33,571 nt of DNA, taken from NCBI GenBank assembly GCA_030431525.1, contig JAUIJC010000043.1:1-33571 (forward strand), written 5' to 3'. Position 1 is the stretch's first letter. Each line of letters starts with the position of its first letter. Below are positions 1-23,275 of the stretch, piece by piece. The DNA comes from Bacteroidia bacterium. Lineage in GTDB: Bacteria > Bacteroidota > Bacteroidia > Cytophagales > JAAEPT01. The notes below the pieces were generated by a model, which searched no databases, was not told the DNA's origin, and worked only from the letters and a program-made list of their open reading frames with translations. A program made the position numbers and the translations under genes.

Positions 1-1
1 T

Positions 2-3000
2 TACAATAGCTTTTTGGCCCAAACTACATTGTTGGATGAGGAGGGCTGTCCATACAACCCTGCGCCTAACTTGAAGTCTATTGTTGACTTGGATGAGTGT
101 GGTATCATCGGCGACAGCCTTGCCATGAGCATCACTTTGGTCAACGTGGGTTCATTGGATTTCCCTTCTGGTGCGCCGGTAAGTATGTATGCCGGAAACC
201 CTACTGAGCCGGGTGCAGAACATATCATGACGGTTTATTTCACAGATCCAATCGCTATTGATGATTCTGTGACGCAGTCGTTTATTGTGGATGTTTCTGG
301 TGTTACGGCTCGTCCGTTTGATTTGTACGTAGTGGCAAATGATGATGGCACTTTGCCATTACCGTTTGACCCAATGCAGGATTGGCCAGGTCCTAACTTG
401 CAGGAGTGTGACTTTGCGGATAACCGAAATGACATCACCACTGCTCCATGGGTAAAGACCGGTTCTGATTTGTTTGAGTGTAGCTCTTCAACGGATATTC
501 CAGTTACGGCCATAGGCGAGAATTTTACTGGGGTGCTTTGGCGAGGAGATGGCACTTTTGCTGATGCCACTTCTTTGGAAACGACCTATAATCCAAGTGC
601 TGCTGAAATTGCCCAAGGCTTTGCGGACTTGACCATTGAAACTACAGGGAGCGTATCATGTCCGGAAACAACCGATTCTTTGAGGGTTTGGATCAGTGAG
701 CAGTCCACTGTGAGTGGAGGCGGCGATGTGTTCTCATGTGGTAGTAATTCTACCGTTTCCTTGAACGGAACGGTGACAGGTGGCGCCACCGTAGAGTGGA
801 TTGGTGCCGGAGGAACTTTTGTTCCAAATGCGAATGCCCCTGTTGTGGACTATGTTCCAAGTCAAGATGAGTTGGATGCCGGTATCACTGCTTTGATTTT
901 TGAGGGCAAGCCAAATGGCGCTTGTCCGGGTGTACGTGACACTATATTAGTATACTTTACTCCGTCTCCTGTAGCTGTTGCCACGACAGGCGGAAGTGCT
1001 TGTTCTAATAATCCCGTTATTGATGTGATGGGTAATGGTAGCCAGAATGCTACTAGTTATACCTGGATTGGTGGATCAGGAACATTTGCTAATCCAAATT
1101 CTCGCAATACCCAATACACCGCATCTGCAAGTGAAGTGGCCAATGGTTCGGTTACTGTTTCATTGGTTGCCTCACGTGCTGATTGTGCTGCCGATACAGC
1201 TCAGGCGGTCTTGACCTTTAACGAGGCTCCGGTGATTGAGGCGGGAAGCAATTTGGATGTCTGTGAGAACAATCCAGTAGCACAACTCAACGCCAATATG
1301 GTGAACTCCACCTTGGGGGCTTGGACTGGTGGTGCGGGAGTTTTCAATCCTTCTGATTCTTCATTGAATGCAACCTATACCTTGGATGCCTCTGAGGTGA
1401 CTGCTGGCGAAGTAGTGTTGTATTTCAATTCCGAGGGTGATGCAGGGAACTGTGTTACTGTAAGGGATTCCATTACAATCTCAGTCTTGCCATCTCCAGA
1501 AGTTAATGCTGGAACTGATATTTCGGTATGTGAGAACAACGCCAATGTTTATTTGGACGGTTCGGTAACAGGAGCTTCAGGTGCACAATGGAGTGGAGGA
1601 AGTGGTTCATTCTTGCCAAGCGCCTCTAACCTCAATGCGACTTATCAACCTACTGCTGCTGAGATTGCCGCAGGTTCATTGACCTTGACGCTCACTTCCA
1701 CTGGAAATGGCTTGTGTAATGCCGTTTCTGATGAGATGGTCATCACCTTTACTCCTGCACCAACTTCGGATGCGGGAACAGATCAAACCATTTGTCGTGA
1801 GCAATCCAGCATTTCTTTGGCTGGTGTTGTCACTGTAGGAACAGGCGGTGTTTGGACTGGAGGAAACGGAACCTTTACGCCAAATGCATCGGATTTGAAT
1901 GCTACTTATACACCTACAGCTACTGAATTGGCGCAGCCAAGTTTGACTTTGACGCTGACCACTTCTGGAAACCAAGGCTGTAATGCTGTGAGTGATCAGG
2001 TTGTATTCACTTTCCAAGATGCACCAATCGTTTCTGCAGGAGCTGATATTGTGGCTTGTGGTGATATGAGCAACGTTGCGCTTAGTGGTAGTGTGCAAAA
2101 CGCTACTGGTGGCCGTTGGACAACGCTTGGTACAGGAACATTTACTCCTGGACGAAATAACTTGAATGCAAGCTATCAACCTTCGGCAGATGATATTGCC
2201 GCTGGTTCTGTTTTGATTGAATTGCGTGACCGAGGTACTTCAGAATGTGCGCGTGTTCGTGATACCATTCAAATCTTCTTCGAGAATACACCTGTTGTTG
2301 ATGCAGGTCCAGACCGTACGCGTTGTACCAATGAACTTCCTTTCACTTTGGAGGGAACCGGTAACCCTGCGGTTTGGTCTGGCGGAACTGGAACATTCTC
2401 CAATGTGAATGATTTCAATTCTACTTATACCCCAACAGATACGGAGATTGCCAATGGGTCAGTAACCTTGACCTTGACCACTGTTGCAAATGGCACATGT
2501 CCTTCGGTCTCTGACCAAGTGACCTTCACTATTTTGCCTGCTCCAGAAGTTGAAGCAGGGGAGGACCAAACCATGTGTGGTAATGAGACCAGCATTTCAT
2601 TGGCAGGTACTATTACGAATGCAACTGGTGGTCAGTGGACCACTTCAGGAACTGGTACCTTCTCCAACACAACTGATTTGAATGCTACTTACACTCCATC
2701 CACTGCAGACAAAAATGCTGGGACGGTGGTGTTGACCTTGACCAGTGTGGACAACGGATTTACCTGTCCAACGGAGTCGGATGCATTGACCTTGACCATC
2801 ACTCCGCCAATTACGGTGAGTGCTGGTCCTGATTTGACGGTTTGTGAAAATGCTGATCCAGCTCAGTTGGCAGGAACTGTAACTGAGGCAACAGGTGGAG
2901 CATGGACAAGTTCTGGTTCGGGAACATTCAACCCGAGCAATACAGACTTGAATGCTACTTACACACCTTCGGCTGCTGACTTGGCTGCTGGTTCAGTAAC

Positions 3001-6000
3001 CTTGACCTTGAATACCACTGGAAATGGAGGTTGCCCAGGTCAGTCGGACCAAATGGTCATTACTTATACACCTGCACCAACTGCGGATGCGGGAACAGAC
3101 CAAACCGTTTGTGAGGATGTGGCTTCCATTAGCCTTTCTGGTTCAGTAACTGCTCCGGCTGCCGGTGGACAATGGACCACCAGCGGAACGGGAACGTTTA
3201 CTCCGAATCCATTTGATTTGAACACTTCCTATGTTCCTTCTGCGGCTGATGCAGCAAGTGGTTCCATCACCTTCACATTGAACACTACAGGAAACCAAAC
3301 CTGTAATACAGTGACCGATGAGGTAACGGTAACCTTTGAGCCTGCTCCAGTGGCAGATGCTGGTGCTGACCAAACGGTATGTGCGAATGTGGAATTTGTT
3401 CAGTTGAGTGGTCAAGTGGAGAACGCCACGGCAAATGTATGGACAACCTCAGGATCGGGCACCTTCTCTGATGCCAATAGTTTGGCTTCTACTTATACGC
3501 CTTCGGCGAATGACACAACGCTTGGTTTTGTAGTGTTGACCTTGACGGCCACCGGAAACACAGCTATTGGTTGTGGAACGGATGCCGACCAAGTACGCAT
3601 TGATTTCACTCCGGCTCCAGTAGTGGATGCGGGTCCTGACTTCAATGTTTGTGCGGACAATAACGCCGTGCAGTTGAGTGCTACTTATACTCGTGCTACA
3701 GGTGTTTTGTGGAGCACTTTGGGTAGTGGCACTTTCTCAAACTCAACCGCTGATAATCCGACCTATTCACCATCTACGGCTGATACGACGGCTGGCAGCG
3801 TGATTTTGGTGGTGCAAGCCACAGGGATTACTGGTTGTAGTGATGTTACAGACACCTTGACCTTGACGATTAATCCTGCGCCAGTGGTGGTTGCAGGGAA
3901 TGATACAACCCTTTGTGAAGGCGGAGATTTGCAGTTGAGCGGACTGGTTCAAAATGCTTTAGGAGGTATTTGGGCTACTTCTGGCACAGGAATCTTTGTG
4001 CCTTCGGCAAGCGACTTGAATGCAACTTACCAGCCTTCCCAAGCGGATATTAACGCTGGTGCTGTTAGCCTTACCTTGACTTCCCAAGGCAACGGTTTGT
4101 GTGGCGGTGTGCAGTCCAGCTTGTTGTTGACCATCCAACCGCTTCCGACAGTAAATGCTGGAACGGATGATTTGGTTTGTGCCAACACTGCAGGTGTAGC
4201 CTTGAATGGTTCTATTTCAAATGCCTCTGGCGCCACTTGGGAAACTGGTGGAACAGGTTCATTTAGCCCGAACGCTACAGACTTGAATGCGAGCTATGTG
4301 CCTTCTGCTGCTGACTTGACAGCTGGAAGCGTTCAGTTGAATTTGGTTTCAGACGTTACCGACGCATGTTCTTCCTTTGAAGATTCGGTGGTAATTACTT
4401 TCCAGCCGATGCCAATGGTTGACGCGGGTGATGATGTGACCATTTGTGAAAATGCAGACCGCTTCACCTTGAATGGTACTATTGATAATGCGACTGGAGG
4501 GATTTGGACAACTGACCACTATGGTGAGTTCTTCCCAAGCGTGGATGACTTGGATGCCGAGTTTGTCATCAACGGTAGCCATGAGGAGCAAGTAACAGCG
4601 CCTGGAACTTGGAATGTGATTTTGACTTCTCAGTCGGATGGAATTTGTCCATCAGTGTCTGACAGCTTCACTTTGGTACTTACGCCGAAGCCGGTTGTCA
4701 ATGCTGGAGATGATATTGTGGTTTGTAGCAATGATTCTTCGGCCATTGCCCTCAATGATGCATCTGTTTCAGGAGCGAGCGGGGGAGTATGGTCAACTTC
4801 GGGAACAGGTCAATTCTTCCCGAATGCGGCTACGGTGAATGCCTCTTATCAGCCTTCCGCTGCTGACCTTGCTGCGGGAACCATCACCTTGAGTTTGATG
4901 AGTACTGGCAATGGTACTTGTACGCCAGTTACTGATGAGTTGGTCATCACTATTGAGCCAGGTCCAACCGCTGAGGCTGGTGCCGATGTGACCATTTGTG
5001 AAAGCAACCCAGTGGTTAACCTCAATGGCGTAGCTACCAATGCAACAACGACGACATGGTTCACCTCTTCTGGAGAAGGAACGTTCTCTCCGAATGCCAA
5101 CGACCTCAATGCCACCTTTACACCAAGTGCGTCTCAGATTGCTGCCGGTGTGGTGGTGATTCGATTGGAGGTTCAAGGCGGTGCGCAATGTCCGGTAGCT
5201 GAGGATCGATTGACAGTTCTTATCGATAGAACACCTGAAGTGGATGCAGGTTCTGACTTCTCCATGTGTGAGAATGTGACTGACATCCAATTGAGCGGGA
5301 CTTACGATCATACTTCAGGAATTATCTGGAGCACTCTTGGATCTGGAACTTTCGTTGATGCAACGGATGCCAATACTACCTATTCACCTTCGGCTGCTGA
5401 TTTGGCAGCAGGTAATGTTCAGTTGGTGTTGACCACTCAAGCGAACGGCGCTTGTATTGGTCAGGATGACACCCTTGCTATCACGTTTACAACTAGTCCA
5501 ACAGCTGATGCTGGTCCTGCAACGACTTGTGCTGATGAAAACGGCATTGACTTGCAAGGTACCGTAACTGTTGCCTCTGGCGGATTGTGGACAAGCTCAG
5601 GTTCTGGAACATTTACTGTGAATAGTGGAGACGGGTTGGATGTGACTTATGTGCCATCTGCCGCCGACATGACTGCAGGTTCTGTTCAACTCACTTTGAC
5701 CACTACTGGAAATGGTACTTGTGTGCCAGCTTCGGATGTGATTGATATCAGCTTGAGCCCAGCAGCAACTGTTGAAGCGGGTACGGATCAAGTGATTTGT
5801 GCCTCTGACGTGGTAACAATTGCAGGTACGGTGAACAATGCCACTGGTGGAACTTGGACAACTTCTGGTTCAGGTAGCTTCGCAAATGCAGGAGCTTTGA
5901 ACACAACATATACACCTTCGGCAAGTGATTTGGCAGGAAGCACTGTAATGCTTTACCTCACTACTACAGGGAACCCTTGTAAGCAGGTGGTGGATAGCAT

Positions 6001-9000
6001 GAAAGTGACCTTCGCTCCAGTGCCAACCGTAGAAGCTGGACCAAATCAGTTTATCTGTGCTGACGAAAGCACCATCAATTTGGATGGAAGCTTGACTGTC
6101 GCTGGTAATGGCCGTTGGTCTACGGTTGCTGGAACGGGAACGTTCTTGCCGAATGAGAATGACCTTCAGGCAAGCTACCAGCTTTCAGCAGCGGATTTGG
6201 CTGCCGGTCAAGTGGAGTTTGTATTGGAGAGCATTTATGGATTCTGTCCTACAGTGACAGACACGATGACGCTTACTATTAATGGTTTGCCAACCATTGA
6301 TGTGGGTGTGGATATCGACTTGTGTAACAACATTGCCGATACCGCTTTGACGGCAACAACTACGAATGCCACCGGAGTGATTTGGTCGACTACTGGTACT
6401 GGAACCTTCAGCCCAGACAATAATTCCTTTGTTGTGGATTATGCGCCTTCGGCTGCTGATTTGGCAGCGGGTAGCGTATTGATTAGCGCAACGACTGAAG
6501 GTTCGGCCTTGTGCCCGACAGCTACTGACCAGTTGGTGATGACTTTTGCGCCAGCGCCAACTGCTTCGGTAACCATGCCAAGTGCTTGTTCTGAAAGCGA
6601 CACCATTTCATTGAGTGGTTCTTACACCAATGCTTCAGGTATTGTTTGGACAACAACTGGCGCTGGGTCATTCTTCCCAAGTGCGACCAATCCAAATGCA
6701 TACTATATCAAAGGTGCAGGTGAGACTGGTTCTGTTGACTTCACCTTGACGACCACGGGTAATGGCGTATGTGCTCCGGCTACTGCAGTTGGAAGCATCA
6801 ACCTTACTCCGTTGCCTAAGGCCGATGCAGGTATTGATGATATCGTCTGTGTGGTTTCCCCACAAATTAGCTTGAATGGTTCCGTGGTGAATGCTACGGG
6901 TGGTACTTGGACCAGTATGGGCTCAGGAAGCTTCGGCAATGCCAATGCTTTGAATACAACCTATAATCCTTCTGCTACTGATATAGCTTCTGGAAGTGTT
7001 CAGCTTGTCTTGACGACAACAGGCAATGGAATCTGTGCTTTGGATACAGATACCGTAGAAGTTACCATTTCAGATAAACCAACCGTTGATGCGGGTCCGG
7101 ATGTGCAGTGTGCGATTGGCGATACCATTCAGTTGGGTGCTAGAATCACAGATGCGACTGGTGCTACTTGGACGACCTCAGATGGTACGGGAATATTCTT
7201 CCCTTCTGCCAACCAAGCTTATACTTCGTATTTGCCAAGTGCGGCGGACTTCGCCAGTGGAGATATCAACTTTACAGTAACTACGACTGGAGGGTGTACT
7301 GATGAGAGCCAGAACATTCAGATGTATTTTGTCCAGCCTCCAATTGCTGATGCAGGTTCTGACAACTCATTCTGTGAGACAGTAGACGATTTTGACATTA
7401 CTGGTCTTGTAGGTGTAAATGACTTGGGGTGGTGGACAACCCTCGGTGATGGTGTCTTTGCAGATACGTTGAGCCTTGTTGGCAACTATACGCCATCTGA
7501 TGATGAGAAGGCGAGGGGATATGCCGACTTGGTGTTGAACTCGAAGAAAAACGCAAGTTTCTGTCCTATTGCTCAGGATACGCTTCGAATTGATTTCGAG
7601 CATTTGCCAACAGTGGACGCAGGCCCTGCGGAAATCTGTTCGGACCAAACGGATATTCCATTGAGTGCAACTTATACCAACGCCTCTGGTGTGGTATGGT
7701 CTCATAATGGAAGCGGTTCCTTCAACCCAGTGAATGGTGCTATCACCGATTACCGAGTTGGAGCTGGTGAAACCGGCGTGGTTACCGCAACAGTTACTAC
7801 CCAAGGAGAGGTATTGTGTCCTGCCACAACTGACCAAGTAGAAATTACCATCCAGCCAATGCCGTTGGCTGATGCTGGAGCTGACTTGGAGGTTTGTGAT
7901 AATGTGACCGATGTGCCATTGACTGGTACGGTGACCAATGCGACTACTGGAACATGGACAACCACTGGTTCGGGTACATTTACCGATGCCAATGCATTGA
8001 GTACTTCTTACCAGCCATCCGCATCGGATATTGCTTCTGGTACGGTGGTCTTGTCCTTGACAACTACGCACGATGTGTGTATGAATCACACGGACCGTGT
8101 AACATTGACTTTCACACCTTCGCCAACAGTTAGTGTGGCTGATACTACAATCTGTACTACTTCGGATGATATTGTGTTCTTCCCGACCAGTTCTGATGCG
8201 ATTGCTTACAACTGGACAACTTCTGGTGCTGGTAGCTTCGTGGATGCCACCAATGAGAACGGCAACTATGTGATTGATGCTTCCGATTATTCGGCGGGTT
8301 CATTCACTGTAACAGTAACCGTTCAAGGTGATGGTGTTTGTACCGATGTAAGCGACAACGCAACCGTGACCATCAACCAAGGTCCAACCTTGTCGGCTAC
8401 GCCTGAAATTAGCTGTGCGGATATTGCCGGTACCCAGTTGGATGCGACCTACACGGACGCTACTGGTGTACGATGGAGCACTTCAGGTTCTGGTTTGTTT
8501 ACTCCAGACTTTACTTTGGATAACCCATTGTATATCCCATCTCCAGATGATGAGTTGCAGGCAAGTGTTGACTTGTATGTAGAAACCACAGGCAATGGCC
8601 TTTGTGAGCCTGCCCGTGATACGGTGAGCGTTTACCCAGTATCCCCACCGAGCTTGGTGGCCACGGCAGTTGCCGATACAGTTTGTGCGGGAATTGCAGG
8701 TGTGAGTTTGGATGCTGATATGGAAGATGCCACTGGTGTGATTTGGAGCACCAACGGCACCGGTACTTTCGATGACAACACTTCATTGACTCCGGTATAT
8801 GAGCCATCCGTTCAGGATACGACCAATGGTTCGGTCATCTTCTTCGTGGAGACTACTGGCAATGGAACTTGTAAGCCAGCTTACGATACGGTTCAAGTTG
8901 GATTCAGCTCCGAGCCTGTTGCAAGCGTGGACTTGGCAGACCAATCCATTTGTGCCTCCCAGAATGAGGTTGATTTGGAAGCTTCCTTCCGCAATGCGAC

Positions 9001-12000
9001 TGGCGGATTGTGGACAACGCTTGGTTCGGGAATCTTCTCACCAACCGATGTCGTTACGAATCCTGCCTACCGCTTAAGCGCTGATGATAAATCTAACGGC
9101 TCTGTACAGGTTGTATTCCAGACTACTGGTCAGCGATTCTGTCCTCCGGCCACTGACACCTTGAACATCACCATCCAGCCATTGCCGATTGTGGATGCTG
9201 GTGTGGATACCTTGGATGTTTGTGAGACTGATAATGTCATCAACTTGAATGGTACGGTGACAAACGCTACTGGCGGAACTTGGACAACTACGGGTAACGG
9301 TACCTTCTCCGATGTAACGGATTTGAATGGTACTTATACCTTGTCTGATAATGATATCGCCGACAGCGTAGTTGTCTTGACCTTGACCAGCACAGGCAAT
9401 GCCTTGTGTGAGGCCGAGACAAATAACCTACGTATTCATGTGGTGCCAATGCCAGTGGCTAATGCTGGAATGGACGAAGGCTTCTGTGCCGATATCGACT
9501 CGGTGTTCTTGAATCCTTCTTTGGAGACTGCTGTAAGAGGAGAATGGCAGACCATGGGAACGGGAACGTTCTCTGCGGATAGCAGTGCCTATGTGCCATC
9601 AAATGCAGATAAGACTGCTGGTTCTGTGAACTTGGTGTACGAGGCCTTCCCTTATGGAAGCTGTACTTCTGATTTTGATACGGTGACCTTCACTTTCCGT
9701 CCGGTGCCTTCGGCTGATGCTGGAGATGACTTGGTGGTTTGTGGTGATACGGCCGGAGTGTTTATCTCAGGTAGCTTCACCAATGCTGGAAACGGCGGAT
9801 GGACCACAACTGGTTCTGGTGTGTTCCTTCCGATGAAGGATTCCATCAATGCCACTTACCGTCCATCGGATGCGGACATCGAATTGGGTCAAGTTGGCTT
9901 GGTGTTCCGAACTACCGGTAACGGTATTTGTGCCTCGGCTCGTGATACCTTGGTGCTGGACATCAACCCAGTGCCGGTGTTGGATGCCGGACAGCGTCAG
10001 ACCATCTGTGCTGACCAGCCATTGGTTGACTTGAGCGGTAGCTATACAGGAAACGGTTCGGTACGATGGACAAGCCCAACGGGTGGAACATTTGCCAACA
10101 ATGCCGATACCGTAACTACTTATGCGATTACTGCACAGGACATCTCGGCTGAGACAGTAACCTTGACCTTGACTTACACTGATGCAGGTCTTTGTAAGCC
10201 ACAAACGGATGAGGTGACCATTACCATCCTTCCAACTCCTGTGGTGGATGCAGGTCCAGATTTGACCTTCTGTGCGGACGTTGGAACCTTCGATATCAGT
10301 GGTTCTGTGGAGAATGCTGGTGGAGGCGTTTGGAACGTGAACGGAGATGGTTCCTTTATCCCATCAGAAGACAGCTTGGAGATTACCTACTATGTGGCTC
10401 CAGTGGATACGGCTCAAGGAAGCTTGACCTTCGTGTTGACCAGTACTGACAACAAAGGCTGTATGCCAGTTTCGGATACTGTGGAAATCACGCTGACGCC
10501 GACACCGAAAGTGATGACCTTCGGGGATACCACTATCTGTACCTTGGAAGATTCTGTACAGATTTCGGGTGACATTACGGTAGCGAGTGGTGGAATGTGG
10601 AGCACGAATGGTACGGGTATCTTCGCTCCAAGCTCCGCTGATTTGACCACCTATTATTACCCATCAGCCAAGGACAGAAACTTGGGTCAGTTGACCTTGA
10701 CCTTGACTTCGACTGGTAATGGTTTGTGTAATGCCTACGAGGGTACAAGCATCGTAACCTTCGTTACGCCTCCGACGGTAAATGCTGGAACTGACCAGAC
10801 CATTTGTGCGGATGCTGATACGATTTATTTGCAAGCTGACTCGGATGCCTCGGGCATTGTTTGGTCAACGACTGGTACAGGAGCATTTGTGCCGGATGCC
10901 AATACCTTGAAAGCATCTTACGTGATGACTGCCGAGGATACGGTAGCAGGTGGAGTTGCCTTTACCTTGCAAACTGACCCGACACAATACTGTGCAAGCG
11001 TAAACGATAAGGTGGTTTACACCATTAACCCAGCGCCAAAAGTGGATGCGGGTATTCCGGTTACGGTTTGTGCCGACACGGCTGGCATTGAGTTGAATGG
11101 CTCGGTGATGCACGCCACAGGCGGACTCTGGAGCACGACTGGTTCTGGAACATTCAAACCTACGACCAGCGACTTGGGTGCAACTTATGTTCCTTCGGTA
11201 GCTGATACAGCAAACGGAAGCGTGAACTTGGTGTTGACAAGTTCTGGAGCTGGCAAGTGTAAGGCTGTGATGGATACGGTAACCATCACCATTGATCCAG
11301 CGCCAGCGATTACCGCTGACCAAGCTCGTTACTGTAAGGATGAGACTGGTGGAATGTTGAGTGGCTCTTCACTCCATGCTGGAGGTATCTCATGGACAAC
11401 TGCTGGTGGTGGTATCTTCACCCCAAGCGCCTTCGGCGACACAGTTTCTTATGTGCCTTCGTTGGATGAGGTTGATGCCGGTGAAAGCTACATCACGTTG
11501 ACCACTGAAGCGACAGGGCTTTGTAAGCCAGTTTCGGAAACCGTTCGTTTGATCATCAAAGATTTGCCTACGGTGAATGCAGGCCCAGACTTGATTCACT
11601 GTGACAACGATGAGGTGTTCTTGGTAGGTGAGGTGGACATCAACGCTACTTCGGTTTGGTTGAACGCCAGTGGCGATACAGTGAGCTTCCCTGAAATGCT
11701 TGATGCTGATATGGAGTATGTCTTGGCTGTGTTGGATAACCAAGGTTGTCGAAATGCTGATACGGTTGCTGTAAGCCGTATCCCACGCATCGACTTCAAC
11801 CTTGATCCATTGACCTGTCACAACTTGGGTGAAGTGTTTGACACCGATCCACAAGGTGATATCGCTAATGGTAACTTCGAGTGGTTCGTGAACGGAACAA
11901 TTCAGAACCGCAATGCACCGACCATCGAGGCCAATACAGCAGGTTCCTATGTGGTTGTTTACAACGAGGGGAACTGTACTACAATCGATTCTACCTACTT

Positions 12001-12973
12001 GCGAGGTAATCCGAAGTTGTACAGCCAAGACTGGATCATGTGTGAGGACGATACCTTGGAGATTCGTACGACGAACCAAGCGAATGTCACTTACGATTGG
12101 TCGCCGAAAGGAAACATCATCTCAGGTGATGGAACCAACAAGATTCAAGTATCTGTCAACACCATTACCACCTTCTTGGTGACTGGCACGGACCAGTTCG
12201 GTTGTATTGGAATGGATACCATCTTGGTGGAGACACGTCAGGTGCCAGAGTTGGAGATTGTAGGTGGCGAGGCTTGTGACCAAGACACCGTGCTCTTGGA
12301 TGCTACGCCATCGAACATCACTGATCCATTGGAGAAGTACACTTGGTATAAGGATGGTCAGTTGCTTGAAGATAGTTTGGCTGTCTATGGAGCTGTGAAC
12401 ACTGGTACTTATAAAGTGGAGTACAGCATCGGCGAATGTATGCGTTCAGATACTGCCGACTTGTTGTTCAACCCATTGCCAGTGGCAGATAACGTGGATC
12501 GTGTTCCGTTCTGTCCGGATGACACCATTGCCATCTTGGATGCCGGACCAGCCTACACTTACTACTGGTACCATGATGAGTCGACATCGCAAATCGTTGA
12601 GGTTGATCTTCCAGATGTATATCCAGTTGATTTGATCAACGAGTTCAACTGTAAGATTACTGATACCTTGATTGCTGAGAGGGCTTGTCCTCCACAAGTA
12701 GTCTTCCCGAATACCATTACTCCGGATTGTGCTTGTCCAAACGGATATTTCGGACCAGCCTTTAAGGATGTCGGTAAATTCCAGATGTGGGTGTACAACC
12801 GTTGGGGTGAGGTGATGTTCTATACCGAGGACCCTGATGAGCACTGGGATGGTACTTACCGTGGGGAAGTTGTTCCAGTAGGTGTTTATCCATGGAGAGC
12901 GAACTGGGAAGGTGATAGCGATGAGTACAAAGGGCCGTTCGACGCCCAAGGAAAAGTGACTGTAGTACGATAA
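2..12973 (+). CDS. Giant tandem-repeat surface protein with T9SS type B C-terminal domain (5' end outside window)
   Basis: The frame is open from the left edge (codons before the TTG at 14 read Tyr-Asn-Ser-Phe), so the start is missing and more than 4,300 codons are visible. The first ~150 residues look like a CARDB-type beta domain. About 42 tandem units of ~88 residues follow, then a partial unit and four divergent Ig/PKD-like domains. The last ~93 residues carry the gliding-motility-associated C-terminal domain (CHU_C, T9SS type B sorting): a VFPNTITPD start, then VYNRWGEVMF, WDGTYRG and VPVGVYPW. Proteins of this build, such as the SprB adhesin of Flavobacterium, are exported by the T9SS and displayed on the surface. 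Lysine is scarce in the repeats and each unit has about two cysteines. The Ser-Phe-Leu-Ala-Gln at the very start could be the end of a signal peptide, which would put the true start just outside. An adhesin role is inferred. No porP/sprF gene follows. Confidence 0.93.
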   Translation, partial: YNSFLAQTTLLDEEGCPYNPAPNLKSIVDLDECGIIGDSLAMSITLVNVGSLDFPSGAPVSMYAGNPTEPGAEHIMTVYFTDPIAIDDSVTQSFIVDVSGVTARPFDLYVVANDDGTLPLPFDPMQDWPGPNLQECDFADNRNDITTAPWVKTGSDLFECSSSTDIPVTAIGENFTGVLWRGDGTFADATSLETTYNPSAAEIAQGFADLTIETTGSVSCPETTDSLRVWISEQSTVSGGGDVFSCGSNSTVSLNGTVTGGATVEWIGAGGTFVPNANAPVVDYVPSQDELDAGITALIFEGKPNGACPGVRDTILVYFTPSPVAVATTGGSACSNNPVIDVMGNGSQNATSYTWIGGSGTFANPNSRNTQYTASASEVANGSVTVSLVASRADCAADTAQAVLTFNEAPVIEAGSNLDVCENNPVAQLNANMVNSTLGAWTGGAGVFNPSDSSLNATYTLDASEVTAGEVVLYFNSEGDAGNCVTVRDSITISVLPSPEVNAGTDISVCENNANVYLDGSVTGASGAQWSGGSGSFLPSASNLNATYQPTAAEIAAGSLTLTLTSTGNGLCNAVSDEMVITFTPAPTSDAGTDQTICREQSSISLAGVVTVGTGGVWTGGNGTFTPNASDLNATYTPTATELAQPSLTLTLTTSGNQGCNAVSDQVVFTFQDAPIVSAGADIVACGDMSNVALSGSVQNATGGRWTTLGTGTFTPGRNNLNASYQPSADDIAAGSVLIELRDRGTSECARVRDTIQIFFENTPVVDAGPDRTRCTNELPFTLEGTGNPAVWSGGTGTFSNVNDFNSTYTPTDTEIANGSVTLTLTTVANGTCPSVSDQVTFTILPAPEVEAGEDQTMCGNETSISLAGTITNATGGQWTTSGTGTFSNTTDLNATYTPSTADKNAGTVVLTLTSVDNGFTCPTESDALTLTITPPITVSAGPDLTVCENADPAQLAGTVTEATGGAWTSSGSGTFNPSNTDLNATYTPSAADLAAGSVTLTLNTTGNGGCPGQSDQMVITYTPAPTADAGTDQTVCEDVASISLSGSVTAPAAGGQWTTSGTGTFTPNPFDLNTSYVPSAADAASGSITFTLNTTGNQTCNTVTDEVTVTFEPAPVADAGADQTVCANVEFVQLSGQVENATANVWTTSGSGTFSDANSLASTYTPSANDTTLGFVVLTLTATGNTAIGCGTDADQVRIDFTPAPVVDAGPDFNVCADNNAVQLSATYTRATGVLWSTLGSGTFSNSTADNPTYSPSTADTTAGSVILVVQATGITGCSDVTDTLTLTINPAPVVVAGNDTTLCEGGDLQLSGLVQNALGGIWATSGTGIFVPSASDLNATYQPSQADINAGAVSLTLTSQGNGLCGGVQSSLLLTIQPLPTVNAGTDDLVCANTAGVALNGSISNASGATWETGGTGSFSPNATDLNASYVPSAADLTAGSVQLNLVSDVTDACSSFEDSVVITFQPMPMVDAGDDVTICENADRFTLNGTIDNATGGIWTTDHYGEFFPSVDDLDAEFVINGSHEEQVTAPGTWNVILTSQSDGICPSVSDSFTLVLTPKPVVNAGDDIVVCSNDSSAIALNDASVSGASGGVWSTSGTGQFFPNAATVNASYQPSAADLAAGTITLSLMSTGNGTCTPVTDELVITIEPGPTAEAGADVTICESNPVVNLNGVATNATTTTWFTSSGEGTFSPNANDLNATFTPSASQIAAGVVVIRLEVQGGAQCPVAEDRLTVLIDRTPEVDAGSDFSMCENVTDIQLSGTYDHTSGIIWSTLGSGTFVDATDANTTYSPSAADLAAGNVQLVLTTQANGACIGQDDTLAITFTTSPTADAGPATTCADENGIDLQGTVTVASGGLWTSSGSGTFTVNSGDGLDVTYVPSAADMTAGSVQLTLTTTGNGTCVPASDVIDISLSPAATVEAGTDQVICASDVVTIAGTVNNATGGTWTTSGSGSFANAGALNTTYTPSASDLAGSTVMLYLTTTGNPCKQVVDSMKVTFAPVPTVEAGPNQFICADESTINLDGSLTVAGNGRWSTVAGTGTFLPNENDLQASYQLSAADLAAGQVEFVLESIYGFCPTVTDTMTLTINGLPTIDVGVDIDLCNNIADTALTATTTNATGVIWSTTGTGTFSPDNNSFVVDYAPSAADLAAGSVLISATTEGSALCPTATDQLVMTFAPAPTASVTMPSACSESDTISLSGSYTNASGIVWTTTGAGSFFPSATNPNAYYIKGAGETGSVDFTLTTTGNGVCAPATAVGSINLTPLPKADAGIDDIVCVVSPQISLNGSVVNATGGTWTSMGSGSFGNANALNTTYNPSATDIASGSVQLVLTTTGNGICALDTDTVEVTISDKPTVDAGPDVQCAIGDTIQLGARITDATGATWTTSDGTGIFFPSANQAYTSYLPSAADFASGDINFTVTTTGGCTDESQNIQMYFVQPPIADAGSDNSFCETVDDFDITGLVGVNDLGWWTTLGDGVFADTLSLVGNYTPSDDEKARGYADLVLNSKKNASFCPIAQDTLRIDFEHLPTVDAGPAEICSDQTDIPLSATYTNASGVVWSHNGSGSFNPVNGAITDYRVGAGETGVVTATVTTQGEVLCPATTDQVEITIQPMPLADAGADLEVCDNVTDVPLTGTVTNATTGTWTTTGSGTFTDANALSTSYQPSASDIASGTVVLSLTTTHDVCMNHTDRVTLTFTPSPTVSVADTTICTTSDDIVFFPTSSDAIAYNWTTSGAGSFVDATNENGNYVIDASDYSAGSFTVTVTVQGDGVCTDVSDNATVTINQGPTLSATPEISCADIAGTQLDATYTDATGVRWSTSGSGLFTPDFTLDNPLYIPSPDDELQASVDLYVETTGNGLCEPARDTVSVYPVSPPSLVATAVADTVCAGIAGVSLDADMEDATGVIWSTNGTGTFDDNTSLTPVYEPSVQDTTNGSVIFFVETTGNGTCKPAYDTVQVGFSSEPVASVDLADQSICASQNEVDLEASFRNATGGLWTTLGSGIFSPTDVVTNPAYRLSADDKSNGSVQVVFQTTGQRFCPPATDTLNITIQPLPIVDAGVDTLDVCETDNVINLNGTVTNATGGTWTTTGNGTFSDVTDLNGTYTLSDNDIADSVVVLTLTSTGNALCEAETNNLRIHVVPMPVANAGMDEGFCADIDSVFLNPSLETAVRGEWQTMGTGTFSADSSAYVPSNADKTAGSVNLVYEAFPYGSCTSDFDTVTFTFRPVPSADAGDDLVVCGDTAGVFISGSFTNAGNGGWTTTGSGVFLPMKDSINATYRPSDADIELGQVGLVFRTTGNGICASARDTLVLDINPVPVLDAGQRQTICADQPLVDLSGSYTGNGSVRWTSPTGGTFANNADTVTTYAITAQDISAETVTLTLTYTDAGLCKPQTDEVTITILPTPVVDAGPDLTFCADVGTFDISGSVENAGGGVWNVNGDGSFIPSEDSLEITYYVAPVDTAQGSLTFVLTSTDNKGCMPVSDTVEITLTPTPKVMTFGDTTICTLEDSVQISGDITVASGGMWSTNGTGIFAPSSADLTTYYYPSAKDRNLGQLTLTLTSTGNGLCNAYEGTSIVTFVTPPTVNAGTDQTICADADTIYLQADSDASGIVWSTTGTGAFVPDANTLKASYVMTAEDTVAGGVAFTLQTDPTQYCASVNDKVVYTINPAPKVDAGIPVTVCADTAGIELNGSVMHATGGLWSTTGSGTFKPTTSDLGATYVPSVADTANGSVNLVLTSSGAGKCKAVMDTVTITIDPAPAITADQARYCKDETGGMLSGSSLHAGGISWTTAGGGIFTPSAFGDTVSYVPSLDEVDAGESYITLTTEATGLCKPVSETVRLIIKDLPTVNAGPDLIHCDNDEVFLVGEVDINATSVWLNASGDTVSFPEMLDADMEYVLAVLDNQGCRNADTVAVSRIPRIDFNLDPLTCHNLGEVFDTDPQGDIANGNFEWFVNGTIQNRNAPTIEANTAGSYVVVYNEGNCTTIDSTYLRGNPKLYSQDWIMCEDDTLEIRTTNQANVTYDWSPKGNIISGDGTNKIQVSVNTITTFLVTGTDQFGCIGMDTILVETRQVPELEIVGGEACDQDTVLLDATPSNITDPLEKYTWYKDGQLLEDSLAVYGAVNTGTYKVEYSIGECMRSDTADLLFNPLPVADNVDRVPFCPDDTIAILDAGPAYTYYWYHDESTSQIVEVDLPDVYPVDLINEFNCKITDTLIAERACPPQVVFPNTITPDCACPNGYFGPAFKDVGKFQMWVYNRWGEVMFYTEDPDEHWDGTYRGEVVPVGVYPWRANWEGDSDEYKGPFDAQGKVTVVR
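464..11566 (+). repeat. About 42 tandem ~264-bp (88-residue) domain repeats inside the giant gene
   Basis: Each unit follows one pattern: P-x-V-x-A-G-x-D near the start, a Cys within about 5 residues (often I/V-C-E/A-N), an L-x-G strand, a G-G-x-W-T-T centre, G-S/T-G-T-F, a D-L-N-A-T-Y-x-P-S turn, A-A-G-S-V strands, then T-G-N-G-x-C and a D-x-V-x-x-T-I end. Reading the translation gives about 42 full units, and 11.1 kb divided by 42 is 264 bp. The paired Cys may form one disulphide per domain (inference). Units are clearly diverged in DNA rather than near-identical. Some vary in length: the unit near 2300-2550 is shortened in its middle, and the one near 4420-4690 carries an insertion. The fold is probably an Ig-like or PKD-like beta sandwich. 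Confidence 0.9.
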
Positions 12974-12993
12974 ATCGTACATTGAAATAGATG

Positions 12994-13028
12994 AAAAAAG
13001 GAGACTTCATTTGAGGTCTCCTTTTTTG
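12994..13028 (+). terminator. Rho-independent terminator of the giant gene
   Basis: A perfect 12-bp stem (AAAAAAGGAGAC at 12994-13005 with GTCTCCTTTTTT at 13016-13027) closes a 10-nt loop and ends in a T run, 20 bases after the giant gene's stop codon. Confidence 0.9.
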
Positions 13029-13082
13029 TTTTTCCGGATTGAATGATGAGTTTAAGCGAACTTTTCAACAAACAATTAAGTC

Positions 13083-13499
13083 ATGCAACCACTTGTCCCA
13101 TACCTCATGTTTGAAGGCGACTGCGAGGAAGCCCTTCACTTTTACAAAACCCTTTTTGGGGGTGAGATTGAAAACTTAAGCCGTTTTAAGGATGGCCCAA
13201 TGGAAACGCCAGACGCCTCCAAAGAAAAAGTGATGCATGCTGAATTCACCTTCTGGGGTGGAAAGGTTATGGTTTCAGATACGCTAAAGGAAGCAGAATA
13301 TACTACGCCAGCAGTGGCTGGAAATGTTCATCTTAGTCTTAGTTTTAAAAATACCTCGACAATGAAGGAGGTCTTCGAAAAGTTGAAGGAGGGAGGCAAG
13401 GTGACCATGGACCTTCAGGAAACATTTTGGGGAGACCAATTTGGGATGGTCCAAGATAGATTTGGCATCCAATGGATGTTATCAGCAAAAGAAGATTAG
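13083..13499 (+). CDS. VOC family (PhnB/glyoxalase-like) protein
   Basis: This 138-residue protein begins with QPLVPYLMFEGDCEEALHFYKTLFGGEI, a typical opening for PhnB-like members of the vicinal oxygen chelate fold: a beta strand, an acidic turn, and a helix ending in F-Y-x-x-L-F-G-G. It ends with the paired-strand signature F-G-M-V-Q-D-R-F-G-I-Q-W-M, also usual for this family. The family includes metal-dependent dioxygenases, isomerases and resistance proteins, but most PhnB-like members have no known substrate, so none is assigned. Length is normal for a single-domain VOC protein. There is no clear ribosome binding site. It stands alone between the giant gene's terminator and a convergent reductase gene, so it probably has its own promoter, which I could not identify. 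Confidence 0.88.
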   Translation: MQPLVPYLMFEGDCEEALHFYKTLFGGEIENLSRFKDGPMETPDASKEKVMHAEFTFWGGKVMVSDTLKEAEYTTPAVAGNVHLSLSFKNTSTMKEVFEKLKEGGKVTMDLQETFWGDQFGMVQDRFGIQWMLSAKED

Positions 13500-13528
13500 A
13501 GAAGTCATTTTTTAAATGAAAAAGTAGC

Positions 13529-13563
13529 CCCCGATGAAGCATTGATAATTTGCTTCATCGGGG
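13529..13563. terminator. Bidirectional terminator between convergent genes
   Basis: A perfect 12-bp stem (CCCCGATGAAGC at 13529-13540 and its complement at 13552-13563) encloses an 11-nt loop. It lies between the stop codons of the VOC gene and the minus-strand reductase gene. Flanking T-rich sequence on the plus side and an A-run on the left (T-run on the minus strand) suit termination in both directions. Confidence 0.85.
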
Positions 13564-13590
13564 ATTATTTATGTTTGAGAGACGGAGCTT

Positions 13591-14499
13591 TTATGCAGCC
13601 CTTTGGTTCATGTTTCTCCAAGTAGGTACAATGATATCACGGGTAAATTCTCGGAAGGTTAGACCAAGGTCTGCCTCTTCAGTTCCTCTTCCAACTTCAT
13701 GGGTATAGCGATCACTGTTGAGGAACTGGTAAAGCTCAACCATTTTGACAGCAGCCTTCGAGGGGATCTCCATTTGTTCTAATCCGCGAATTGCATTCTC
13801 TCGATTGCTCTGAACATAGCGAAGTTCCGGCCGATCAATCTCTTCAGCCATGATGGTGGTCATCTGCTTCATGCTCAAATCTTCAGGGCCGTGAAGCTCT
13901 TCAATATTTTTCCCAATGATTTCTGAGCTTATCAACCATTCGGTAGCGGCTTTGGCAACGTCATGGGTGGAAACTACAGGAATTGGTTTGTTTGGGTTCA
14001 GAGGGGAGGAGATAATATTTTGGGTTTGTACCATATGAAGCATGGATACCATGTTCTCCATGAAGAATCCACATCGCAAATGGGTGACATTTAGGAAGTC
14101 AATCTCATTCAGGGCATTTTCCAGATGATTCAGACCAACGATAAAACCTGTGCCTTCTGTCAGTTCTGCGCCCAGACTACTCAGTGAAACTGCCGTCTCA
14201 ATCTTATTTGCTTTGATTGCCTTGGCAATAGCATGACAGGCTTGATCTTGAAACTCCATCGGGTTTTCCTCGTCGTAGGGAGTTGGAAGCATGCAGAATA
14301 CGCCAGACACGTTTTGAAGTGCCTTGGTCATAAAGCTGGTATCACAAATATCTCCGCAGGCAAGGTCGGCTCCCATTTGCTGTAGGTCTCGCAATCTTTC
14401 AGGATGACGCGCAATGGCGCGCACTTCCATGCCTTCATCTATTAATCGTTCAGCAACCTGCCTTCCGACATGGCCACTGGCTCCTATAATGGCGTACAT
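13591..14499 (-). CDS. NmrA-like NAD(P)-binding reductase (atypical SDR)
   Basis: The protein (302 residues) starts MYAIIGASGHVGRQVAERL. This is a beta strand followed by the glycine motif G-A-S-G-H-V-G (residues 6-12), the dinucleotide-binding turn of NmrA/atypical short-chain dehydrogenases. A basic residue after the second strand (Ala-Arg-His-Pro near 35) suggests NADP preference. The rest (VSGVFCMLPTPYDEENP, AVSLSSLGAE, LNHLENALNE, THLRCGFFMENM) follows the NmrA/HSCARG layout, in which the classical Tyr-x-x-x-Lys pair is not retained and the protein may sense NAD(P) or reduce an unknown quinone-like substrate. The substrate is not known. It is monocistronic and converges on the VOC gene. 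No promoter is recognised in the gap upstream. Confidence 0.87.
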   Translation of the reverse strand: MYAIIGASGHVGRQVAERLIDEGMEVRAIARHPERLRDLQQMGADLACGDICDTSFMTKALQNVSGVFCMLPTPYDEENPMEFQDQACHAIAKAIKANKIETAVSLSSLGAELTEGTGFIVGLNHLENALNEIDFLNVTHLRCGFFMENMVSMLHMVQTQNIISSPLNPNKPIPVVSTHDVAKAATEWLISSEIIGKNIEELHGPEDLSMKQMTTIMAEEIDRPELRYVQSNRENAIRGLEQMEIPSKAAVKMVELYQFLNSDRYTHEVGRGTEEADLGLTFREFTRDIIVPTWRNMNQRAA

Positions 14500-14692
14500 A
14501 ATGGTAGTCGTGAAATGGACACTTTTTTTCGTATGAACGAAGAGAAAGAAGGTTACGTTTTACGCGTTCCTTTGAATGACATGCATTAGCGATAAAGTCA
14601 TTCATTGGCTCGGTTAGCGAAGGAGATAGACCAAGCTGACTGGTTTAGCTTAGTGTTTTTCTTTTGCTTCTTTGTTAGTGAGGGCCTCGGAC

Positions 14693-14723
14693 TTTGCTGA
14701 CACGTAAGGAATTGATAAATTTG
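14693..14723 (+). promoter_or_regulatory. Bacteroidota housekeeping promoter for ffh
   Basis: A -33 element TTTG (14693-14696) is separated by exactly 19 nt from a -7 element TAAATTTG (14716-14723), matching the Bacteroidota consensus TTTG-N19-21-TAnnTTTG. Transcription would start near 14730, leaving a leader of about 108 nt before the ffh start codon. Confidence 0.75.
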
Positions 14724-14729
14724 CCGATT

Positions 14730-14830
14730 CAGTTAACAGTGGATAATTGTCAGGTGATGATGGAAAGGGTTATCCTGCCCTCCAAACCGGTCGCCATTTT
14801 CCCACACTGTTAACTGTTAACTGTTAACTG
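14730..14830 (+). repeat. Inverted repeat plus three tandem TGTTAAC heptamers in the ffh leader
   Basis: CAGTTAACAGTG at 14730-14741 is the exact reverse complement of CACTGTTAACTG at 14805-14816. The right arm is part of three perfect tandem heptamers TGTTAAC (14808-14828). Because of these, the inner 10-mer CTGTTAACTG occurs three times (14807, 14814, 14821), so the left arm could pair in three registers. The array ends 9 bases before the ATG. Function unknown; it would form an RNA stem in the leader. Confidence 0.8.
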
Positions 14831-14837
14831 ACAAGTC

Positions 14838-16178
14838 ATGTTTGATAATCTTAGCAATAAACTCGACCGCGCTTTTAAGACCCTGAAAGGGGAAGGCCGT
14901 ATCACGGAAATTAACGTTGCCCAAACCATTAAGGAGATTCGTAGGGCTTTGGTAAATGCCGATGTAAACTACAAGGTAGCCAAAGACATTACCGAGCGAA
15001 TCAAGGATGAGGCGATAGATCAAAAGGTTTTGATTGCCGTTAAGCCTGGTGATTTGCTTGTTAAGATTACATCGGACGAGTTGGCCAAGTTGATGGGTGG
15101 AACCAAAGAGGATATTGACCTCTCTGGAAATCCAGCTGTCATTTTGATGTCAGGTTTGCAGGGTTCTGGTAAAACCACCTTTACGGGTAAGCTTGCCAAT
15201 ATGCTCAAGGACAAAGGCAAAAAAGTGTTGATGGCGGCATGTGACGTTTACCGTCCTGCGGCGATTGACCAGCTTAAGGTTCTTGGTGAGCAAATCGGTG
15301 TCGAGGTTTATTCTGAGGTAGACAATAAGAATCCAGTAGAGATTGCCCAAAATGCCATCCAGCATGGTCGTCAGATGGGAGCGAAGGTGGTCATCATCGA
15401 TACCGCCGGTCGTTTGGCCATCGACGAGCAAATGATGGATGAGATTGAGCGCGTTAAGAAAGCAATCAATCCTTCTGAAACATTGTTCGTGGTGGATGCC
15501 ATGACTGGTCAGGATGCCGTAAACACAGCCAAGGTCTTTAACCAACGCATCAACTTTGATGGGGTGGTGCTTTCCAAGTTGGACGGTGACTCACGTGGTG
15601 GTGCGGCGCTTTCCATCCGCAACGTGGTGGAGAAGCCGATTAAGTTCATCTCCACAGGGGAGAAAATGGACGCTATCGACGTGTTCCACCCTGAGCGTAT
15701 GGCTCAGCGTATTTTGGGAATGGGTGACGTACTTTCCCTTGTTGAGCGTGCACAGCAGGCTTACGACGAGGACGAAGCACGTCGCTTGAGCAAGAAAATC
15801 CGTAAGAACCAGTTTGACTTCAACGACTTCTTGACGCAAATTCAGCAAATCAAGAAGATGGGTAACATCAGCGACTTGGTGGAAATGATTCCAGGTGCCA
15901 GCAAGGCCCTTCAAACCCAAGACGTGGAAATCGAGGATGATGCCTTCAAGCCAATCGAGGCCATCATTCACTCCATGACTCCTAAGGAGCGCGCTAATCC
16001 AGAAATTTTGAACAGCAGCCGTCGTCGCCGTATCGCAGCGGGTAGCGGAACCAGCGTGGAGCAAGTGAACAGTCTGTTAAAGCAGTTCCAAGAAATGCGC
16101 AAGGTGATGAAGAAAATGAGCAAGTTCATGGACGGCAAGAAAAACCTCTCCAAGTTGATGGGAGGTGGCATGGGTTAA
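14838..16178 (+). CDS. ffh: Signal recognition particle protein Ffh
   Basis: Ffh is the GTPase subunit of the bacterial SRP. It binds signal sequences emerging from the ribosome together with the SRP RNA and docks at the receptor FtsY at the inner membrane. The 446 residues show the usual N domain (MFDNLSNKLDRAFKTLKG). The G domain has the P-loop GLQGSGKT (106-113), DVYRPAAIDQL, DTAGR (188-192), TGQDAV and SKLDGDSRGGAALS. From about residue 300 comes the methionine-rich M domain with the RNA-binding segment SRRRRIAAGSG (about 393-403). Length and start agree with the family. There is no Shine-Dalgarno sequence, which is normal for this phylum. It is transcribed alone from the promoter at 14693-14723 through an unusual repeat-bearing leader. 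Confidence 0.98.
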   Translation: MFDNLSNKLDRAFKTLKGEGRITEINVAQTIKEIRRALVNADVNYKVAKDITERIKDEAIDQKVLIAVKPGDLLVKITSDELAKLMGGTKEDIDLSGNPAVILMSGLQGSGKTTFTGKLANMLKDKGKKVLMAACDVYRPAAIDQLKVLGEQIGVEVYSEVDNKNPVEIAQNAIQHGRQMGAKVVIIDTAGRLAIDEQMMDEIERVKKAINPSETLFVVDAMTGQDAVNTAKVFNQRINFDGVVLSKLDGDSRGGAALSIRNVVEKPIKFISTGEKMDAIDVFHPERMAQRILGMGDVLSLVERAQQAYDEDEARRLSKKIRKNQFDFNDFLTQIQQIKKMGNISDLVEMIPGASKALQTQDVEIEDDAFKPIEAIIHSMTPKERANPEILNSSRRRRIAAGSGTSVEQVNSLLKQFQEMRKVMKKMSKFMDGKKNLSKLMGGGMG

Positions 16179-16199
16179 TGCTAAATATTTAAAAGTCAG

Positions 16200-16249
16200 G
16201 TCTTAGACTTAAAAAAGCGATGCGTCAGCAAGCATTTTAGGTCTAAGGC
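16200..16249 (+). terminator. Possible ffh 3' stem-loop
   Basis: GTCTTAGACTTAAAA at 16200-16214 pairs with 16235-16249 over 15 positions, two of them G-U. It lies 21 bases after the ffh stop codon. The T tract after it is weak (CTTTCCTC), so it may be a 3' protective hairpin rather than an efficient terminator. Confidence 0.45.
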
Positions 16250-16305
16250 CTTTCCTCAAAAAGGCGGTTAATGGGCTGTTAAGGCTGAAAAAAAGGGCTT
16301 AACCC

Positions 16306-16336
16306 TTTGGTAAAATAAAATAGCTTTCTACCTTTG
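16306..16336 (+). promoter_or_regulatory. Promoter of tRNA-Cys
   Basis: TTTG (16306-16309), a 19-nt spacer, then TACCTTTG (16329-16336): an exact match to the Bacteroidota housekeeping consensus. It lies 27 bases upstream of the tRNA, giving a leader of roughly 20 nt. Confidence 0.85.
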
Positions 16337-16363
16337 TAACCGTTCCGAGAGGGACGCCTAGAT

Positions 16364-16437
16364 GGTCTCGTGGCCGAGTGGCTAGGCATCGGTCTGCAAA
16401 ACCGAGTACAGCGGTTCGAGTCCGCTCGAGACCTCCA
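16364..16437 (+). tRNA. tRNA-Cys (anticodon GCA), CCA encoded
   Basis: The acceptor stem GGTCTCG (16364-16370) pairs with CGAGACC (16427-16433). The anticodon stem TCGGT/ACCGA holds the loop CTGCAAA with anticodon GCA at 16396-16398. The T arm is AGCGG-TTCGAGT-CCGCT. The discriminator is T16434 (U, the cysteine identity base), followed by an encoded CCA at 16435-16437. It is a single-gene transcription unit with its own promoter and terminator. Confidence 0.96.
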
Positions 16438-16440
16438 TCC

Positions 16441-16478
16441 AAAACCCGCAAGTGGCACTTAGCTCTTGCGGGTTTTTT
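16441..16478 (+). terminator. Terminator of tRNA-Cys
   Basis: A perfect 12-bp stem (AAAACCCGCAAG at 16441-16452 with CTTGCGGGTTTT at 16465-16476) encloses a 12-nt loop and runs into a T tract, directly after the tRNA. Confidence 0.93.
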
Positions 16479-16607
16479 GTTTTGGTTCACCCTAATTTTC
16501 AGGGGATTGAACCAAGGCAGGGGTAAAAAGTGTTTCCCCGATACAACTCTGTAAATTCATGTGTCGTTAGGCAGTCAGTGAGGAGGAATAGAAAAAAGGG
16601 AAGGTAA

Positions 16608-17999: not shown

Positions 18000-18013
18000 T
18001 GGTTCGCTAAACA

Positions 18014-18553
18014 ATGAAACACCTTTACTTTTTGGCCATTGTGCCCACAGAACCGCTTCTGTCTTCTCTTCAAGAGGAGAAGGAGCGGTTCTCTGCTTTA
18101 TACCATACATCCCATGCGTTGAAATCCCCGCCTCATATTACTCTTTACAAGCCTTTTCGGTGGGAGGATGAGCAAGCGTTGATATCTAAATTGGAGGAAG
18201 CGGTAAAGGATATGCCTTCGTTTGCCTTGAACTTGAAGGATTACGGCGCTTTTGCACCAAGGGTCATTTTTGTAGATGTGGAGGGTTCCGAAAAGTTGGG
18301 TATGCTCAAAAATGCCGTGGAGGAAACCATGGCTGATGCATTGCAGGTAGAAAAAGAACATCGTCCATTCGCCCCACACTTGACTTTGGCCCATAAAGAC
18401 CTGTCTCCTCAAAATTTTAAAAAGGCTTGGCACGAGCTCAAAGAAAAACCCTTCCAAGCTTCGTTTGAGGTAGAAGGGTTCTGGTTACTGAAGCACAACG
18501 GAAGAAAATGGGAGATGGATCGGTTTATTAATCTTTCTTCTTTTTCACATTAA
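18014..18553 (+). CDS. 2H phosphoesterase, 2'-5' RNA ligase (LigT-like) family protein
   Basis: The 179-residue protein has the two H-x-T motifs that define the 2H phosphoesterases: H41-I-T43 (in PPHITLYKPF) and H122-L-T124 (in FAPHLTLAHK), placed in the two halves of the fold as expected. Family members hydrolyse 2',3'-cyclic phosphates or join RNA ends with 2'-5' linkage in vitro; the cellular substrate is usually unknown, and so it is here. It is 14 bases downstream of the serine hydrolase gene, so probably in one operon. Its last 26 bases overlap the end of the convergent DUF4421 gene, and no terminator lies between them. Confidence 0.88.
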   Translation: MKHLYFLAIVPTEPLLSSLQEEKERFSALYHTSHALKSPPHITLYKPFRWEDEQALISKLEEAVKDMPSFALNLKDYGAFAPRVIFVDVEGSEKLGMLKNAVEETMADALQVEKEHRPFAPHLTLAHKDLSPQNFKKAWHELKEKPFQASFEVEGFWLLKHNGRKWEMDRFINLSSFSH

Positions 18554-23214: not shown

Positions 23215-23229
23215 CCTCAAAGCTAACAA

Positions 23230-23275
23230 TCTGATAAAAATGAAAAGAGGCTGACTCAACTTTTGAGACAGCCTC
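23230..23275 (-). terminator. Inward-facing terminator at right IS end
   Basis: On the minus strand, 23275-23264 (GAGGCTGTCTCA) pairs with 23258-23247 with one mismatch around a 5-nt loop. TTTTCATTTTTATC follows. It would stop transcripts entering the IS from the helical-protein gene, and mirrors the left end. Confidence 0.72.

Follow-up and report, generated by a model that had tools for sequence, protein, structure and literature searches.

What does the long open frame that enters this window from its left edge encode, and what would the protein do at the cell surface? The window, i.e., the whole stretch of DNA analysed, comprises bases 1-33571 (33,571 nucleotides) of contig C69 in a draft genome of 4.24 Mb and 75 contigs. 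The frame occupies 2-12973 on the forward strand and contains 4,323 codons without a stop, in agreement with the single unbroken frame over 12.97 kb described in an earlier, sequence-only reading; the other two forward frames contain 319 and 229 stops in bases 1-13100. Its 5' end is cut by the edge of the contig, so that the first tenth of a giant gene is missing from the window; the product of this gene is referred to here as giant 1. With residues numbered within the window frame, its features are the following:

2-448, + strand: module between the FG-GAP region and the units (residues 1-149), 60% identical to its counterpart in giant 3; unit 1 starts at residue 150
449-11569, + strand: 42 tandem units with two cysteines each, predicted to be Ig-like (residues 150-3856), from profile and alignment and from the structure prediction for units 9-11 (pLDDT 95.6)
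11570-12703, + strand: half unit from residue 3857 (14 bits with the unit profile) and C-terminal linker with further cysteines (residues 3857-4234), from the profile match and the cysteine positions
12704-12931, + strand: CHU_C, or type B T9SS sorting domain (residues 4235-4310; PF13585, E 7.9e-7)
12994-13027, + strand: terminator-like hairpin and T run, after the stop codon at 12971-12973

In the interval 12600-13600 there are two terminator-like sites, compared with a mean of 0.8 in shuffled sequences.

The giant gene is followed, within 13083-18553, by genes for a VOC protein, an NmrA-like oxidoreductase, ffh, a beta-lactamase-fold protein and an RNA 2',3'-cyclic phosphodiesterase. Further along the window lie a DUF4421 protein (18528-19703, - strand; E 1.6e-44), the TTG start of which overlaps the start of the next frame so that the true start is probably further in, an IS1182 family transposase (21604-23259, - strand; 452.7 bits against a cut-off of 270), and two more T9SS substrates with type A sorting domains (19617-21479 and 27135-28283, both + strand).

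A profile built from the units defines 42 complete copies of 84-93 residues (mean 88.3), close to the estimate of about 42 units of about 88 residues made at first sight. Exactly two cysteines are present in every one of the 42, and the earlier description of the units as 'usually' having two was thus right about the rule but understated it. Both cysteines, a tryptophan, a glycine and a phenylalanine are invariant, and a tyrosine is kept in 40 of the 42 units; within the 'DAG' signature, the alanine is found in 35/42 and the glycine in 34/42 units. Pairwise identity between the units averages 36% (range 18-60%), and exact DNA repeats in the frame reach 23 nt at most, which together make collapse of the array during assembly unlikely. 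An assembly artefact of the repeats was therefore rejected.

Three giants of this kind are encoded in the genome. Giant 2, on contig C8, comprises 5,020 residues from its likely initiator methionine, and all of its 48 units carry two cysteines. Giant 3 is split between contigs C29 (5' part) and C70 (3' part), the ends of which do not overlap and the join of which was deduced from phase and content; its known codons total 4,883, counted from one candidate methionine. The three proteins give 134 profile hits in all, and the two-cysteine rule holds in 131/131 complete units, the remaining three hits being incomplete (two half units, and a unit truncated at the end of a contig).

The upstream part of the giant 1 gene, anticipated by the sequence-only reading, was found on C8 in a genome search that used the giant 3 N-terminus as query; it is homologous to that query (73% identity over query residues 1-529). 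This start runs off the right end of C8, which repeats bases 1-137 of the window, an overlap of about 136 nt. Close to the contig ends, a T run differs in length by one base between the two copies: the frame is continuous and giant 3-like in the C69 version, and shifted in the C8 version. The same one-base difference may explain the break in the assembly between C8 and C69. The joined giant 1 comprises about 4,884 residues from the first methionine, with a computed mass of 504 kDa and a pI of 4.05 (signal peptide included), arranged as signal-like start, FG-GAP region, 149-residue module, 42 units and type B domain. Judged by eye, the start resembles a signal peptide, with a hydrophobic stretch ending in Q-Q-A-W-A-Q. 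FG-GAP_3 is detected both in giant 3 (E 5.7e-17) and in the part of giant 1 that begins on C8 (E 1.1e-18), and the FG-GAP region of giant 3 (L023:10490-12535, - strand) matches the solved structure 6mlt, 'Hemolysin-related protein', over query residues 366-505 (E 6.2e-20). We take 6mlt to be Bap1, a biofilm adhesin of Vibrio cholerae. A giant of a relative in the same order also matches 6mlt (E 8.8e-18).

AlphaFold2 modelling of units 9-11, with 38 unit triples of the window as input alignment, reached the pLDDT given above at a pTM of 0.76, and the model consists of beta strands with one short helix in each unit. The units are predicted to form Ig-like beta sandwiches, and the Ig-like fold, for which the earlier reading had suggested a test by structure prediction, is supported by matches of the model to GhpA, Ig and cadherin chains. 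A Cys-Cys bridge inside each unit is likely; spanning about 62 residues, it would let a stretched unit give way only at its ends, and a stalk under load would stay short and strong.

Pfam reports no model for the units in a scan of the whole protein at E up to 10, and CHU_C is the only model to pass its cut-off in whole-frame scans against Pfam (E up to 10) and NCBIfam (E up to 1). When the units are scanned singly, the nearest Pfam models are PKD-like, with 8/42 units matching at E up to 1 and a best value of 5.8e-4. At the same threshold PF22352, PF19406 and PF19081 (PKD-like or CHU_C-associated Ig-like) match 8, 2 and 1 of the 42 units, respectively; compared with these families, the units are marked by the invariant cysteine pair with W, G and F. 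The repeat, which the first reading could not name, has no Pfam match at the level of the whole protein (E up to 10), but its single units lie nearest PKD-like models and it has a solved relative, GhpA.

GhpA from Aureispira sp. CCB-QB1 (PDB code 9fly and seven further entries) is, like giant 1, a giant T9SS substrate with a tandem Ig-like shaft. It provided the best Foldseek chain (9fly, E 3.4e-13), ahead of cadherins, and among the families in the VIA-align 2 listing it was also the best by fold (9fly: Z 14.0, rmsd 6.7, 242 aligned residues, 24% identity), followed by NCAM2 (Z 10.8) and by five more GhpA entries (Z 9.1-9.5) among Ig proteins. In sequence searches of the PDB, GhpA was the only match below E 1 for the whole frame of giant 1 (E 1.2e-25) and for giant 2 minus its first 101 codons (E 5.3e-48), and a three-unit profile matched it in 26 stretches (E 7.4e-66; next match E 1.5e-7), all of these E-values being ones that may flatter the match, as HMMER reports high compositional bias in the GhpA alignments. 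The best-scoring stretches of the three-unit profile fall in the C-terminal part of GhpA, at about 5,020-5,580. GhpA was found by the longer queries and by the three-unit profile, and was absent from the PDB matches of a single-unit profile at E up to 10.

Of 394 other genomes sampled from the phylum, at least 14 contain two-cysteine units (E up to 1e-12), a lower bound obtained with at most 13 candidates scored per genome. Loci fetched from 12 of those 14, or from their genomes, contain 83 units at E < 0.01 with a profile of our own 134 units; 79 have two cysteines and four have one, and the longest unbroken run of units is 19. Separately, a 1,695-residue type A protein on contig C36 (L026:3180-8264, + strand) contains laminin-G and Ig domains and one weak unit match.

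The type B sorting domain and T9SS export of the earlier reading are supported by three lines of evidence, i.e., the PF13585 match (29.6 bits against a cut-off of 27), the presence of SprA, and a nearby PorP/SprF-family gene. The match to TIGR04131 at the same place is below the cut-off of 35, as it is in all three giants (24.1 bits in giant 1; 29.7 and 33.1 bits in the others), and of the 28 type B matches in the genome, those of the giants come 24th to 26th in rank. Type A matches number 124, nine of these below cut-off. SprA (TIGR04189) scores 2,217 bits against a cut-off of 200. A search of the PDB with the C-terminal 467 residues gave a best E of 0.19.

Giants 1 and 2 are transcribed away from each other, and the PorP/SprF-family gene (C8:19060-20013; 249.5 bits against a cut-off of 90.55) lies between them on the giant 2 strand. 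Excerpts of PMC12618676 describe PorP/SprF carriers as taking up type B substrates and deciding their final place. For F. johnsoniae the same excerpts report a frequent linkage of type B substrates with PorP/SprF genes, two of the substrates having been shown to need them, and state that these genes are commonly found directly downstream of the substrate; here, in contrast, the carrier-family gene is upstream of giant 2 and divergent from giant 1. Three of 12 type B genes in F. johnsoniae are given there as having no PorP/SprF neighbour. There are no PorP/SprF matches on C69, C70 or C29, hence none near giant 3 in these contigs. Elsewhere in the genome, three PorP/SprF-family genes follow in a row immediately after a 2,656-residue type B protein (L163, C20:108137-111697), and one of their tails has a C-x-x-C motif.

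Giant 1 is probably a T9SS type B surface contact fibre, in which an Ig-like stalk presents an FG-GAP tip. We infer the export route, the identity of the carrier, the disulphide, the outermost position of the N-terminus and the binding function as follows. Sec would export the protein into the periplasm and the SprA translocon would pass it through the outer membrane, whereupon a PorP/SprF-family carrier, most likely C8:19060-20013, would hold the C-terminal domain at the surface. A long stalk would be built from the 42 Ig-like units, with a single internal disulphide clipping each of them, and would present the N-terminal FG-GAP region at its far tip for binding to a surface, a polymer or another cell. 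At about 4 nm per unit, the 42-unit stalk would measure some 170 nm. Among the best matches in the open-licence PMC literature, no paper was recognised as describing this giant protein.

The same architecture might instead serve biofilm formation or cell cohesion, in which case the long array would be a polymer binding cells to one another. The protein is very acidic, by its computed pI, and long, it is one of three copies in the genome, and its FG-GAP region matches the structure presumed to be the biofilm adhesin Bap1. Giant adhesins with Ig-like repeats do make biofilm elsewhere, Acinetobacter BAP being the example in the excerpts of PMC4647330. Against this, the N-terminal region is present on other shafts in 23/240 genomes of the order besides this one, a distribution that suggests a separate function for the tip, and we consider a cohesive role unlikely. 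Of the order proteins with the N-terminal region, three were scanned. The first closes with a type A domain and has no FG-GAP match (E up to 0.001), the second has a type B domain at its end, and the third has a sub-threshold type A match there. The relatives found by the N-terminal region were rejected as a source of the units, as none of the 24 ORFs (400 residues or longer) in 12 loci fetched from them contains a two-cysteine unit. Tip and shaft seem to have been exchanged separately.

A more specific possibility is suggested by GhpA, which excerpts of PMC11205867 and PMC13319060 describe as a T9SS substrate that assembles as a heptamer. Giant 1 would then be a grappling hook for the capture of prey or neighbouring cells, with several copies wound into a multimeric shaft like the GhpA heptamer. 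Among solved proteins GhpA gives the best match both in fold and in sequence, the latter for giants 1 and 2 and for the three-unit profile, and the size class is similar (5,898 residues in GhpA, 4,884 in giant 1). However, heptamer and hook are features of GhpA, giant 1 being known here from its sequence and predicted fold, and the similarity extends beyond proteins of this design. A type A giant of 4,115 residues in another genome of the order (L149:4901-17245, + strand) matches GhpA more strongly than giant 1 does (E 7.8e-51). It has the same kind of units as giant 1, 20 in number, all 20 with two cysteines and 19 of them in an unbroken run, but it differs in its N-terminus and in its type A domain (33.7 bits against a cut-off of 27), and PKD_6 is found in 15 stretches. 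Its best GhpA-matched stretch, residues 805-2364, covers both the two-cysteine units (from 1296 on) and PKD_6 domains, either of which may carry the match, so that resemblance to GhpA goes with tandem PKD/Ig-like arrays in general. On this basis we rejected the idea that such resemblance proves a hook; it marks neither type B export nor hook function. Furthermore, the FG-GAP region and module of giant 3 have no GhpA match at E up to 1, and neither do two order giants that share the N-terminal region and are devoid of the units. The probe for the T6SS partner of ixotrophy, TssC (PF17541), gave no match in the genome, but it was also silent in 14/14 control genomes and therefore weighs on neither side. 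From the other evidence, a GhpA-like hook is improbable for giant 1.

The relationship between the three giants raises the further possibility that they work together. For 37 of the 42 giant 1 units, the best match in giant 3 is the unit with the same number, and same-numbered units share a mean identity of 0.55, all other pairs one of 0.36; the best of 10,000 random unit pairings reached 0.40. The spacing from first cysteine to first cysteine is equal in 21 of 39 steps between the two proteins, compared with a mean of 6.7 and a maximum of 15 equal steps in permutations (5,000 each). The matching of units by number implies that the duplication took in the entire gene, and within the sequence covered by the contigs no unit has since been added to or lost from giant 1 or giant 3. 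Over 3,558 codons, the two genes differ at 62% of third, 35% of first and 29% of second positions, a pattern as expected if the protein is under selection. The units of giants 1 and 2 also align in order, albeit with gaps (score 2.14, against 1.41 for the best of 300 shuffles). Unit-specific residues are strongest at positions 12-15, 83, 64, 71, 59, 63, 55 and 8, among others, and those at 8, 12-15 and 71 adjoin the cysteines at 10 and 72. Their location beside both cysteines is a hint, though not proof, that the two cysteine regions may meet.

These observations would fit an arrangement in which giants 1 and 3, and perhaps giant 2, are matched strands of one compound, hetero-oligomeric and register-locked stalk or hook with FG-GAP tips. 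In such a fibre unit i would pack against unit i, which would account for the same number, the same order and the nearly equal spacing of the units, and the strands would be packed as in a multimeric shaft like that of GhpA. We regard this arrangement as distinctly improbable, and retain the surface contact fibre as the preferred reading.

A gliding role, which the sequence-only reading had put beside adhesion, is weakened by our data. It would make giant 1 a SprB-like adhesin, carried on the periplasmic gliding track by a PorP/SprF partner, and SprB of Flavobacterium johnsoniae is indeed similar, as it is very large, ends in a type B domain and has a PorP/SprF carrier (excerpts of PMC12618676); a gene of the carrier family lies nearby in the present case too. 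The same excerpts report that other cargo can be sent to the gliding machinery by the SprB type B domain alone, and those of PMC12635249 give SprB a length of about 200 nm. The latter also report that substitution of either cysteine of the C-x-C motif in SprF abolishes gliding on agar, and that in F. johnsoniae a minority of SprF with a lone cysteine still links to GldK. The carrier beside the giants (C8:19060-20013) lacks the C-x-C tail of SprF, the partner of SprB; it has a lone cysteine and ends in R-I-P-C-P-S-F. C-x-C is absent from the last 45-50 residues of all 16 PorP/SprF-like proteins of which the tail was read (14 above and two below the family cut-off, six weaker match rows being left out of the count). 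The best piece for the gliding track protein GldJ reaches 138.7 bits against a cut-off of 458.2, with a model that also matches Caulobacter vibrioides and Methanosarcina acetivorans (2/14 controls), and the Pfam SprB repeat PF13573 is not found in the window frame at E up to 10. Because a lone-cysteine SprF still links to GldK in a minority of cases, the gliding role is weakened only, and it is the least probable of the roles considered.

The three giants belong to a known kind, i.e., giant T9SS surface proteins with Ig-like arrays, and a hitherto unnamed repeat of Bacteroidota giants is tied to GhpA, with the qualification that GhpA similarity alone does not equal a predatory hook. What sets them apart is that three giants share one genome, that two of them flank a carrier-family gene, and that the register of the 42 units is frozen. 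In bacteria, giant repeat proteins are generally regarded as prone to gain and loss of repeats; in contrast, giants 1 and 3 have kept 42 units in the same order despite drift to 55% identity. If the compound arrangement were true, the array would act as a molecular ruler rather than as a repeat that can expand, and if the length of the array is under selection, these giants would offer a system for testing what sets the length of a surface fibre.
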